A stretch of 64,000 bases of DNA from Thermophilibacter mediterraneus (GTDB taxonomy: Bacteria; Actinomycetota; Coriobacteriia; Coriobacteriales; Atopobiaceae). The notes under the pieces were generated by a model that was not told where the DNA came from, searched no databases, and worked only from the letters and a program-made list of their open reading frames with translations. Each line of letters begins with the position of its first letter. The stretch's first letter is position 1. A program made the position numbers and the translations under genes. The stretch lies in the NCBI RefSeq assembly GCF_900119385.1, contig NZ_FPKO01000009.1, positions 1 through 64,000 of the forward strand, in the 5' to 3' direction. Shown piece after piece: positions 31,934 to 41,303 of this stretch.

Positions 31934-32252
31934 GGCATGTCCTGTCTTTCCGAACCTTCGTGCGTCCCGCCCAGCTGACCTGGTCTTTGCCCCCACACCC
32001 GCGCACCGGGGACGTCGCTTGCGGCGCCGCGGCGCCTCCACTGTTGCCCCTCTCGCCCGCGAGGCCGGATGCCTCATGCGTATGACGGGCGGTGCGACTT
32101 ACCTCTAGGACGAGCCATGATCGCGCGGGCGCGCACGCCCGAGCTTACGTGGATCCCTTTGCCCTCGTCTGGCTTGGACTAGGACGACGGCGCGGGCGCG
32201 GGCGCGCCGGGGCGTAGCCGTCCGCAACCACAGACCTGGTCGAGACGTCGCT

Positions 32253-33236
32253 CTAGTATACCCCGTCCCACCTGCGCGCTCGCCCAGAACGCGCGGACGT
32301 AGGGACCTTGTGGCGAGAAGAACCTCGGGCCGGATGGCGTGGGAGTCGCAAGGGGCGGCGGGGCACGGGGCGCCATTCGGGTTTCTGACCTGCACGGAGT
32401 GCGACGGCGACTGGCCGGTCCGCGCCACGGTCGCGGCGCCGGGCTTCTCGGGCACGCCCGCCCGCCTGGCGGGCTGGGTCGAGGGCACCCACGCGCGTCC
32501 ACGATGCGAAACTCCGGGCGAACGCGCACACGGTGACCGACGCCGCGCCACGCTCGGCGAGGGCGCGGGCCGCCTCGGCGACGGAGGCGCCCGTGGTCAC
32601 CACGTCGTCAACGAGCAGGAGGCGCGCGCCCGAGACGTCTGCGACGGAGCGCATCGTCCCCTCGAGGTTGCGCGATCGAGCCTCTCTGCCAAGATCGCGC
32701 TGGTCCCGGGCGCGCGACCGCACGAGCACGTCCGCGAGCGGCAGGCCCGCCCCGCGCGCGAGCTCGCGCGCCACGAGCTCCATGTGGTCGAATCCGCGCC
32801 GCGCGTACGCCCGCGACGTCGCGGGGACGAAGCACACGCCGTCGATCGCGGAGGGCGCGAAGCGCGGCGCGCCGTCCTGGGCCGGCCAGGCGGACGACTC
32901 CTCGAGCGCGGTGAGCATGGCCGCCGCCATCACCGGGGCGAGGCGAAGCTCGTGGGCGTCCTTGAGCCCGACCGCCATGCGAGCCGGCGTGCCCGAGAAG
33001 CCCAGCGCCGCGACCGTGGCGCGGACCGGCCAGTCGCCGTCGCACTCCGTGCAGGTCAGAAACCCGAATGGCGCCCCGCAGACGGGACATGCCAGGCGCT
33101 GCTCGATCCAGGGGAGCTCGGCGCGACACCGGTCGCAGAGCAGCGTGCCCGGCTGGTCGCACCCCACGCAGCGCGTGGGCCAGAGCGCCTCCGCGAGGCC
33201 CTCCCCCATCGCGCGCCCGAAGTCCCCGATGCGCAT
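32253..33236 (-). CDS. comF: ComF-like phosphoribosyltransferase with rearranged 3' end
   Basis: A 327-codon frame whose first 240 or so residues are a normal ComF: Zn-ribbon CVGCDQPGTLLCDRCRAELP...CPVCGAPFG...CTEC, FVPATSRAYARRGFDH, and the PRPP loop LLLVDDVVTTGASVAEA. ComF helps DNA uptake and strand processing during transformation. After VCAFAR the family's usual end is lost: the next 29 bp copy a neighbouring gene in inverted orientation and the following 120 bp are an inverted, slightly diverged copy of comF itself. The extra 80 or so codons therefore look like rearrangement product. ATG 33236 follows GGAGGGGG. Confidence 0.8.
   Translation of the reverse strand: MRIGDFGRAMGEGLAEALWPTRCVGCDQPGTLLCDRCRAELPWIEQRLACPVCGAPFGFLTCTECDGDWPVRATVAALGFSGTPARMAVGLKDAHELRLAPVMAAAMLTALEESSAWPAQDGAPRFAPSAIDGVCFVPATSRAYARRGFDHMELVARELARGAGLPLADVLVRSRARDQRDLGREARSRNLEGTMRSVADVSGARLLLVDDVVTTGASVAEAARALAERGAASVTVCAFARSFASWTRVGALDPARQAGGRAREARRRDRGADRPVAVALRAGQKPEWRPVPRRPLRLPRHPARGSSRHKVPTSARSGRARRWDGVY
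32366..32524. repeat. Inverted copies of neighbouring coding sequence
   Basis: 32366-32457 matches the complement of comF 32987-33078 with one mismatch as I read it, and continues with weaker similarity to about 32490. 32496-32524 (29 bp) is identical in inverted orientation to 33913-33941 inside the flavodoxin-like gene. The junction with comF falls in a shared GTTCGCCCGG. The first pair could form a long cruciform with comF. Confidence 0.85.
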
Positions 33237-33332
33237 GCGTCCCCCTCCGTCTGCGGATGGGGGTCGCCTCGGTGGGAAGAGTGTATCACCCGCCTTGCGC
33301 CGACGCGCGCTTGGCGCAACTGCACGAAACCT

Positions 33333-33533
33333 CGTCGAGTGCGCGCTCCTCACAAGGGGCGGGCGCGCACTCGACGGGATTCCTGTCCGAACGGACAAGA
33401 AAGGGCTCGAGTGCGCGATGGCCAGCGCGCACTCGACGCGATTCCGGTCCGCGCCAGCGCGCACTCGACGCGATTCCTGTCCGCGCCAGCGCGCCAGCCC
33501 CCAGCGCGCCAGCCCCCAGCGCGCCAGCCCCGG
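33333..33533. repeat. Cluster of 32-bp and 15-bp repeats
   Basis: A 32-bp unit beginning GCGCGCACTCGACGCGATTC occurs as two exact-register tandem copies (33425-33456 and 33457-33488, one difference) and once earlier (33363). Inverted 11- to 14-bp pieces lie at 33333 and 33408. Three copies of a 15-bp GCGCGCCAGCCCCCA unit follow. The cluster fills the divergent gap between comF and the next gene; I see no gene in it. Confidence 0.85.
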
Positions 33534-33634
33534 CGGTCGCGACCCCGCGACGCCACCAGCGCGCGGCTCGTGACATTCCTCACTTCCGGGGGACGCGCCC
33601 GAGGGGTAGGCTTTCCACAGGAGAGGGGTGACGC

Positions 33635-34813
33635 ATGAGAACCATCGTCTGCGACCTGACGCGCGCCGCGCTCGAGGAGCTCGGCATCGACTTCGATAAG
33701 GCCGTCTGCCTCGAGGAGCTCCGTGCCGCGCACGGCTGCCAGGGCTGCTTCGGCTGCTGGGTGCGCACGCCCGGCGCCTGCGTCATTCGCGACGCCCTGG
33801 GCGACCTGCCCGCCCTTCTCGCCCGAAGCGACGAGCTCTGGATCTTCTCGGAGAACTCGTTCGGCTGGGTCTCGGCAGACGTCAAGCGCGCCCTCGACCG
33901 CTGCATCCCGTTCGTTCGCCCGGAGTTTCGCATCGTGGACGGCAGGATGCACCATCGCCTGCGGCACGACCGCACGCCCGAGCTCTCCGTCTGGCTCTGG
34001 GGCCCCTCCACCGAGGCGGAGCGCGCCTGCGCCCGGCACCTGGCCGACGCGAACGCCCTCAACCTCGGCATGCGCTCCGCAGGCGTGCGCTTCGTGGCCG
34101 ACCCGCTGGGCTGCGGCGCCGAGGGGGACTCCCCCGCCGCGGACGCCCCCGCGCCGCGCGCCGCGCGCGTCCCCGCGCTCCCCCGTCGCATCGCGCTCGT
34201 GAACGGGAGCCCCAAGGGCCCGCGCTCGGCGACGGCTCACCTGCTCGTCGACCTCTCGGAGGCGCTGGGCGTCTACGCGCGTCTGGCCGGCGTGGCGGAG
34301 CCCGAGCTCGTCGAGGTGGCGTGCCGGCAAGCCGGTGCGGATGCCTCGGGGCTCGTCGGATGCGACACCGTCGTCCTCGGCTACCCGCTCTACGTGGACG
34401 CGCTGCCGAGCGGCCTCGTCGACCTCCTCGGGGACGCCGCGCGCCTCCTCGCCCCCGGCGCGCGCGTCTACGCCCTCGCCAACCTTGGGTTCTACGAGGC
34501 GGAGCAGATTCTGCCGTCCTTCTCGCTCGTCGAGGGGTTCTGCGCCGCGGCCGGGGCGCACTGGGCGGGGGGCGTCGCCGTGGGCGCGGGCGGCATGGTG
34601 CTGCCCGTGGCGACGACCCCGCGCATGGGCATGCTGCGCCGAAGCGCCTCCGAGGCGATCGACCGGATGATCGCGGCGATCCTGTCCGGCGCCGACGCCG
34701 GGACGATTCTGGCGCGACCGGCCGTCCCCCGCTGGGCCTACCGGCTCGCGGCCGAGGAACAGTGGCGGCGGCTCGCCCGCGAGAGCGGGGCGGACCTGGG
34801 CGCCACGCCCTAG
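33635..34813 (+). CDS. Two-domain flavodoxin-like NAD(P)H/FMN reductase
   Basis: A 392-residue protein that appears to hold two flavodoxin-like domains. Domain 1 (about 1-175) has the iron-sulfur-flavoprotein-type cysteine cluster GCQGCFGCW and lacks a clear N-terminal phosphate loop. Domain 2 (about 188-345) begins RIALVNGSPKGPRSATAHLL, a standard FMN-phosphate loop, and has TVVLGYPLYVDALP. A cytosolic electron-transfer role is likely; partners are unknown. ATG 33635 follows GGAGAGGGG. The C-terminal 45 residues are helical and basic. Confidence 0.75.
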   Translation: MRTIVCDLTRAALEELGIDFDKAVCLEELRAAHGCQGCFGCWVRTPGACVIRDALGDLPALLARSDELWIFSENSFGWVSADVKRALDRCIPFVRPEFRIVDGRMHHRLRHDRTPELSVWLWGPSTEAERACARHLADANALNLGMRSAGVRFVADPLGCGAEGDSPAADAPAPRAARVPALPRRIALVNGSPKGPRSATAHLLVDLSEALGVYARLAGVAEPELVEVACRQAGADASGLVGCDTVVLGYPLYVDALPSGLVDLLGDAARLLAPGARVYALANLGFYEAEQILPSFSLVEGFCAAAGAHWAGGVAVGAGGMVLPVATTPRMGMLRRSASEAIDRMIAAILSGADAGTILARPAVPRWAYRLAAEEQWRRLARESGADLGATP

Positions 34814-40243: not shown

Positions 40244-40375
40244 GAGAAAGCCTCCCATCCCTCGGACTTTACTTTTCAGTCCAAGAAATGGGAGGCAGTT
40301 CATTGGCTGGGACGGGGCCCCGGGCGCGACCCGCCGGCGCCGGCGGACGCGGACCCGGGCGCGGCTAACCTGGAC

Positions 40376-40404
40376 TTGACACTATGACCTGACGCCAGTG
40401 TCAA
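40376..40404. repeat. Palindromic repeat, family R, copy 4 (inverted)
   Basis: Minus-strand orientation. With flanks, 34-35 bp are identical in inverted orientation to copy 5 at 41224, so the pair brackets vapBC. The vapC stop codon (40401-40403) lies inside the outer arm. Confidence 0.9.
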
Positions 40405-40832
40405 CCTCGCGCACGAGACAAGATTCCGAGGAGGCCGAGGGCGTCGACCTTCTTGAACTTGGCGGAATGAAATCCCGGAGCATCCCTGGTGAGCAGGTAG
40501 TCGCACCCGGAAAGCTCGGCCGCGGCCCGCAGAAGGCCGTCCTCGAAGCCCCGCTCATCGGACCCGAGCGCATCATCGACAATCTCCGCCGTGAGGTTGA
40601 CGAGCGCAAACATGCGCCGCAGCTCGCGAATCGCCCCGCGCGCCGCCGGCTCGTCCCCGTAATGGCGACAGTAGACGTAATACACGTCCTTGAGCGAAGA
40701 GGAGAGGACGCAGCCATCAAAGCCGTCCGCGGCGAGCAGCGCTCGAACGGCACTAACGGCATCTTCGTGCGCCGGACGGCCCGAGGAGACCAGATCGATA
40801 AGGACGTTGGTATCGATCATCACTCTATGCAT
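40401..40832 (-). CDS. vapC: PIN-domain toxin VapC
   Basis: A 143-residue PIN ribonuclease. The first catalytic Asp is Asp7 in MIDTNVLIDL; the other acidic positions are the Glu in TAEIVDDAL, the Asp in GFEDGLL and the Asp in LLTRDAPGF. It would cleave RNA when freed from its antitoxin. ATG 40832 overlaps the vapB stop by 8 bp, the usual coupled arrangement. The stop codon is provided by a family R repeat. Confidence 0.88.
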   Translation of the reverse strand: MHRVMIDTNVLIDLVSSGRPAHEDAVSAVRALLAADGFDGCVLSSSLKDVYYVYCRHYGDEPAARGAIRELRRMFALVNLTAEIVDDALGSDERGFEDGLLRAAAELSGCDYLLTRDAPGFHSAKFKKVDALGLLGILSRARG

Positions 40833-41143: not shown

Positions 41144-41223
41144 CTTTTATTCGCGAGCATAGGAGCGACGGGGCGGGCAGCCGGGCGTATTGACACCCGC
41201 GTCGGTTGACACTGGCGTCTCGG

Positions 41224-41252
41224 TTGACACTGGCGTCAGGTCATAGTGTCAA
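41224..41252. repeat. Palindromic repeat, family R, copy 5
   Basis: TTGACACT, a 13-nt core GGCGTCAGGTCAT, AGTGTCAA. Two partial left arms, TTGACACCCGCG and TTGACACTGGCG, precede it in tandem (from about 41190). Copy 4 is its exact inverted partner. Confidence 0.9.
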
Positions 41253-41303
41253 GTCCGCTTGGGGAGGGTGGACGGGGCCGGCAGCTGGGGACGGCGCCAA
41301 GAT

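Follow-up and report, generated by a model that had tools for sequence, protein, structure and literature searches.

In the assembled genome of Thermophilibacter mediterraneus the 3' end of comF is a mosaic of inverted pieces of comF itself and of a neighbouring flavodoxin-like gene. The sequence is as described below, and there is probably no biology behind it: it is likely that inverted chimeric or misplaced reads entered the consensus in the GC-rich DNA that separates comF from the raiA RNA. An artefact is favoured over an event in the chromosome because similar scrambles are found at all four of the single Ns in the sequence read and in ribF.

The assembly comprises 2,374,959 bases in 9 contigs and is 99.61% complete. 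The window, the whole stretch of DNA analysed here, is the first 64 kb of contig C1, and positions without a contig name refer to it. The portion of the genome scanned for Ns and repeats was 1,992,789 bases (84% of the 2,374,959).

Structure of the comF 3' end

The features of the region are as follows, with the basis of each in brackets.

31966..32244, minus strand: raiA RNA (RF03072), next after comF, matching the model over its full length (128.8 bits against a gathering score of 101.3)
32253..32513, minus strand: aberrant extension of the comF frame, 86 codons and a stop (stop of relatives at the same point; no match to the tail)
32256..32365, unstranded: unmatched spacer up to the raiA RNA promoter, probably native (no comF homology; control spacers)
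32366..32499, plus strand: inverted copy of comF codons 53–98 (inverted-repeat search, anchored extension)
32496..32524, unstranded: exact inverted match of 29 nt to the flavodoxin-like gene (inverted-repeat search)
32514..32524, unstranded: 11-nt overlap CGTTCGCCCGG at the first join, between comF and the flavodoxin piece (direct reading; part of the 29-nt match)
32514..33236, minus strand: normal part of comF, 241 codons (ComF homology, Pfam and TIGR profiles)
32945..33078, minus strand: stretch of comF that is the source of the inverted copy (inverted-repeat search)
33635..34813, plus strand: flavodoxin-like gene, 392 aa (name from the preliminary description of this DNA)
33913..33941, plus strand: source of the 29-nt piece, inside the flavodoxin-like gene (inverted pair)

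The comF frame runs from 33236 to a stop at 32253–32255 and encodes 327 aa, 241 normal residues followed by 86 odd ones. The protein is 71–78% identical to ComF in 24/24 same-genus genomes searched, and the order of a double zinc ribbon and then a phosphoribosyltransferase domain marks it as a member of the ComF family. Two Pfam families score over their cut-offs, PF18912 with 29.9 bits (cut-off 27) and PF00156 with 44.1 bits (cut-off 26.3). TIGR00201 (comF) scores 71.9 bits, below its cut-off of 233.55, and its match extends to the end of the model, at residue 241. Beyond that point the protein lacks the two final residues and the stop codon seen in relatives; SFASWTR and 79 more residues stand in their place. 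The preliminary description had reported about 80 aberrant residues; the extension is real in the sequence and its exact count is 86.

Downstream of the normal codons the frame enters 29 nt that form an exact inverted pair with 33913–33941 across a distance of 1388 nt (E 8e-8 when the whole genome was searched), in agreement with the earlier report of a 29-bp identity to an inverted piece of the flavodoxin-like gene about 1.4 kb away. A shared sequence at this first join had also been recognised; it measures 11 nt (32514–32524) rather than the 10 nt originally given.

The frame then passes into the inverted copy of comF, which matches 32945–33078 over 134 nt at 91% identity (E 2.8e-48 in a whole-genome search). 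Counted from 32366, its mismatches number 0/74 (32366–32439 is exact), 1/19 and then 11/41, the last 41 nt being approximately 73% identical. Under a uniform rate, one mismatch or fewer in the first 93 nt has P 7e-6, and the anchored-extension score of the last 41 nt exceeds those of all 300 shuffles. To the left of 32366 the anchored extension of comF homology scores 0 and the edge is sharp, so that the fading is one-sided and lies only beside the flavodoxin piece. The copy had been described as spanning codons 53–85 and fading into a diverged copy. Its near-identical part is as described, whereas the full span is codons 53–98, and the fading is seen beside the flavodoxin piece (11/41) and not at 32366. 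By codon position the mismatches fall 5/5/2, which is unlike a second working comF allele. Longer homology to the left of 32366 was suggested by a tblastn match to residues 32–95 and by gapped alignments at approximately 70%, and was rejected on the anchored extension of 0.

The remaining spacer carries a GGTATACT box at its low end (32255–32262). Three candidate origins for it were considered and set aside. Local matches cover 23 nt of the spacer, compared with a mean of 25.4 in 60 control spacers, and it was not taken as a further part of the mosaic. The stretch 32312–32327 has 132 forward and 144 reverse near copies (two mismatches or fewer; the reversed control has 2 and 7); it is probably a common coding word and was dropped as a spacer origin. 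A 19/20 match to the spacer of locus L010 had raised an inverted comF end in the spacer as a candidate (17 against a maximum of 16 in 300 shuffles); since it falls on the same common word, it carries no weight.

The preliminary description had also pointed to a large potential cruciform, and the arms, taken as a single strand, do fold strongly (z -15, 20 shuffles), a prediction that merely restates the inverted repeat. The comF arm has 76% GC and the tail 74%, the latter at the 92.5th percentile of the window, which is elevated without being exceptional.

A search of the flavodoxin-like protein against Pfam and NCBIfam gave no match at E 0.001. A nearly full-length homologue of it adjoins comF in 6 distinct same-genus genomes (8 loci, of which L035 and L039 duplicate L008 and L011). 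In the spacer between comF and this gene (33325–33535) a short repeat around GCGCACTCGACG recurs several times and in either orientation, and a 16-nt unit occurs there three times with a spacing of 15 nt. Further along the window, 40372–40406 and 41222–41256 form an exact inverted repeat of 35 nt whose arms are 815 nt apart; it is unique in the sequence read and could mark the ends of a small mobile element.

Comparison with relatives

ComF C-termini were read in 29/39 other genomes with a comF match, 24 from the same genus and 5 order-level loci; one gapped alignment of the comF ends left out L044. ComF ends in ARVW-stop in 24/24 same-genus genomes read, and the order-level loci end in RVW-stop (4/5) or RAW-stop (the fifth). 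The tail is peculiar to this assembly as far as seen. Such a comparison of comF ends had been proposed in the preliminary description, which had also held that relatives with the same tail, and purifying selection on it, would refute its reading. With 32246–32530 as query and the best match taken for each genome, 30 further genomes of the genus gave nothing that matched the tail among the matches listed. The best match is mostly comF itself (query 121–251 at its widest), and in a few genomes only a short piece; other matches among those listed are approximately 60 nt or less, except for 97 nt at 71% identity elsewhere in genome G017. This result is what either a private mutation or an assembly error would give. 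The search turned up no further genome from the same species, and two exact probes (23 nt and 25 nt) gave zero matches against viral contigs.

Between the comF stop and the raiA promoter, members of the genus differ widely in how long the spacer is and in what it contains; a TATACT-like box and the start of the raiA RNA recur in most relatives' spacers. A closed relative, G007, was examined over 400 kb; this stretch contains neither an N nor any exact inverted repeat of at least 25 nt whose arms are more than 100 nt apart. Approximately 2 would be expected there from the 10 such repeats in the 1.99 Mb read here, a count that excludes dispersed GTGCAAA hairpins and the paralogs at 924–961 kb, so this comparison has little power. 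The same 400 kb carries an exact inverted repeat of 83 nt with its arms 45 nt apart, so long palindromes are not confined to the T. mediterraneus assembly.

Scrambles elsewhere in the assembly

Four single Ns occur in the 1.99 Mb read, and each has a local exact repeat of 60 nt or more no farther than 30 nt away, although only 0.47% of the sequence is as close to such a repeat. The four are not fully independent, as two of them are separated by only 1.3 kb and further copies exist of some of the repeats. Immediately after the N at C1:147404 comes an arm of 301 nt, the exact inverted copy of which ends at 148029. Those at C6:331338 and C6:332641 each stand between two identical copies, of 127 nt and 71 nt respectively, and the N at C6:350381 directly precedes a 1249-nt exact inverted arm. 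The inverted repeat to which this last arm belongs (C6:350381–353658) has 779 nt between its arms and could reflect either a false join or a genuine invertible element.

Scrambles are also found where there is no N. At C1:92808–95030, with the scramble at C1:93.5 kb, an MFS-like gene is fused at its 3' end to ogt with no stop between them, giving a single frame of 740 codons. The junction is an exact 73-nt inverted piece of the neighbouring ogt (77% GC), and its design is the same as that at comF. The MFS-like fragment scores 27.0 bits in Pfam, below the cut-off of 33.4, and the ogt part scores over the cut-offs of PF02870 and PF01035. A match in genome G042 to the MFS part (88%) ends at query residue 94, where the inverted piece starts. 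A 71-nt inverted repeat of 90% GC lies in the gene at C6:202531–204666 (C6:203 kb), which we take to be dnaG. The copies at both of these sites have sharp edges.

The scramble in ribF (C6:204663–205895, scramble at C6:205.2 kb) consists of a 124-nt local copy at 98% identity together with a small inverted repeat, and it breaks the FAD-synthetase domain of the protein. It sits where four aligned relatives read DFRLGAxGAG (4/5 fetched relatives were included in this alignment and L283 was left out). The gene provides the genome's only FAD_syn match, over profile positions 6–102 of 158 only, and its one match to the Flavokinase profile, and its frame is open throughout the scramble. Bifunctional RibF is generally essential, and its loss would be expected to be lethal. 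The scrambled ribF is therefore unlikely to be the true sequence, despite its open frame.

Other repeats were observed in the course of the scan. At least 5 proteins of 858–920 aa, in alternating orientation and with a nearly identical leader peptide, are encoded at C1:924601–961208, where inverted repeats reach 159 nt; these are possibly a recombining surface-protein family. A CRISPR-like array at C3:223535–229721 has 95 exact 28-nt repeats, mostly 61 nt apart, and a second dense array of direct repeats, with a period of 66, lies at approximately 240–242 kb of C3. A dispersed hairpin with arms like CGTGCAAAAGGGACAG (for example at C1:377148–378629) has 90 half-site matches in the 1.99 Mb read.

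Origin of the mosaic

Assembly error was named from the outset as an alternative to be excluded, and the evidence now favours it. Inverted local pieces with a short overlap at the join, scrambles at marked Ns and a broken copy of the conserved, single-copy ribF are all present in this one assembly. The GC-rich comF end and spacer were probably poorly covered, and the join would have been made from one or more inverted chimeric or misplaced reads of comF and the flavodoxin-like gene. Chimeras of this type arise in vitro when a 3' end or a sticky single strand anneals to the opposite strand nearby and is then extended. In the real chromosome comF would most likely end as it does in relatives, followed by an ordinary spacer and then the raiA RNA. 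We infer the same cause at the comF site as at the other scrambles, and likewise the manner in which the chimera formed.

Several observations count against this artefact reading. There is no N at the comF site, the GC content of the tail is not extreme and the ribF frame is open. The rising mismatches along the comF copy look like a read losing quality. A test for lagging-base errors was not significant, however, with 11/12 changes equal to one of the two preceding bases (P 0.11) and 7/12 when only the immediately preceding base was counted (P 0.40). Edges are sharp in the copies at MFS-like/ogt and at C6:203 kb, so the fading at comF is explained only by assuming a poor read.

The preliminary description had proposed serial template switching during replication. 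The geometry it relied on is present, since inverted copies of nearby sequence are joined with microhomology in the form of the 11-nt overlap; the similar scrambles elsewhere argue against its origin in the chromosome. As a real mutation private to this strain, arising by template switching in replication or break repair, the mosaic would have formed when the growing comF strand switched, at the 11-nt overlap, to the flavodoxin-like gene on the opposite strand, 29 nt were copied and synthesis then moved to inverted comF, at the cost of the last two residues of comF and its stop. The fading would then reflect an older, decayed inverted copy that was partly re-copied from comF more recently. The exact inverted pieces of 29 nt and 74 nt and their overlap suit this account, and the variable comF–raiA spacer in the genus suggests that changes there are tolerated. 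Precedents are described in E. coli, for template switching at imperfect inverted repeats (PMC7202029), and in yeast, for template switching with arms becoming alike (PMC8604942). With the mismatches taken as real, however, a gradient of 0/74, 1/19 and 11/41 beside an exact 29-nt piece does not correspond to a single event, and within 134 nt two or more events, differing in age, would be needed. A private mutation also leaves the local exact repeats at all four Ns unexplained, and a real event of the kind seen in the only ribF found should kill the cell. We therefore regard it as unlikely. A broader version, in which the mosaic is real and the lineage is prone to frequent fold-back template switching in GC-rich DNA, seems to us quite improbable; comF, MFS-like/ogt, the C6:203 kb gene and even ribF would on that view be recent casualties of such switching, with the comF arms partly re-copied following an earlier inverted duplication.

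That the tail is a selected feature, either a C-terminal extension with a function in ComF or a hairpin that controls comF or the raiA RNA, is very hard to credit. The frame does stay open for 86 codons and the arms would pair, but open frames are common at such GC, with 43 ORFs of at least 60 aa overlapping 30–37 kb. The tail is, moreover, an antisense reading of comF together with a fragment of another gene, the ComF model stops at residue 241, and the 30 other genomes of the genus hold no match to it among the matches listed. Chance similarity or a dispersed repeat can be given almost no weight: the spacer stretch 32312–32327 is frequent in the genome, probably as the common coding word noted above, but the first 25 nt of each inverted arm occur exactly twice in the 1.99 Mb read, and the two matches have E values of 2.8e-48 and 8e-8. 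We conclude that an error introduced in sequencing or assembly is the likely source of the mosaic.

If the mosaic is such an artefact, the genome contains undeclared errors in its consensus that look like striking biology, such as fused genes, palindromes and broken housekeeping genes, and features of this kind should not be interpreted without the reads. If it were real, template switching in a high-GC actinobacterium would have left a natural record, rare of its kind, at several loci of one genome.

Comparison with known systems

Template switching in vivo at imperfect inverted repeats (PMC7202029, PMC8604942) shares the inverted geometry and would explain the re-copied 74-nt tract. It differs in that it requires a pre-existing inverted copy, and it leaves the Ns and the broken ribF unexplained.

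PMC9575681 names misassembly at gap-closing sites in its abstract. The local duplications beside single Ns resemble this, suggesting scaffold joins and filled gaps.

Library preparation also gives inverted chimeras, and according to PMC10908179, reads run into the opposite strand at inverted repeats. The reads of its PDSM model are alike in that a read enters the complement of nearby sequence at short inverted repeats; they differ in that they are described from human sequencing and as low-frequency calls rather than consensus errors in bacteria.

A close likeness in form is to chimeras from multiple displacement amplification (MDA). In the amplified DNA of a single E. coli cell, 406/475 chimeras were inverted and 337 of those had their pieces less than 10 kb apart, and 76.8% of the chimeras had at least two complementary bases at the join, with a maximum of 21 (PMC1855051). 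That DNA had been amplified, and an assembly at high coverage should outvote rare chimeras. The mosaic at comF is nevertheless alike in its arrangement, with inverted pieces less than 10 kb apart joined at a short complementary sequence.
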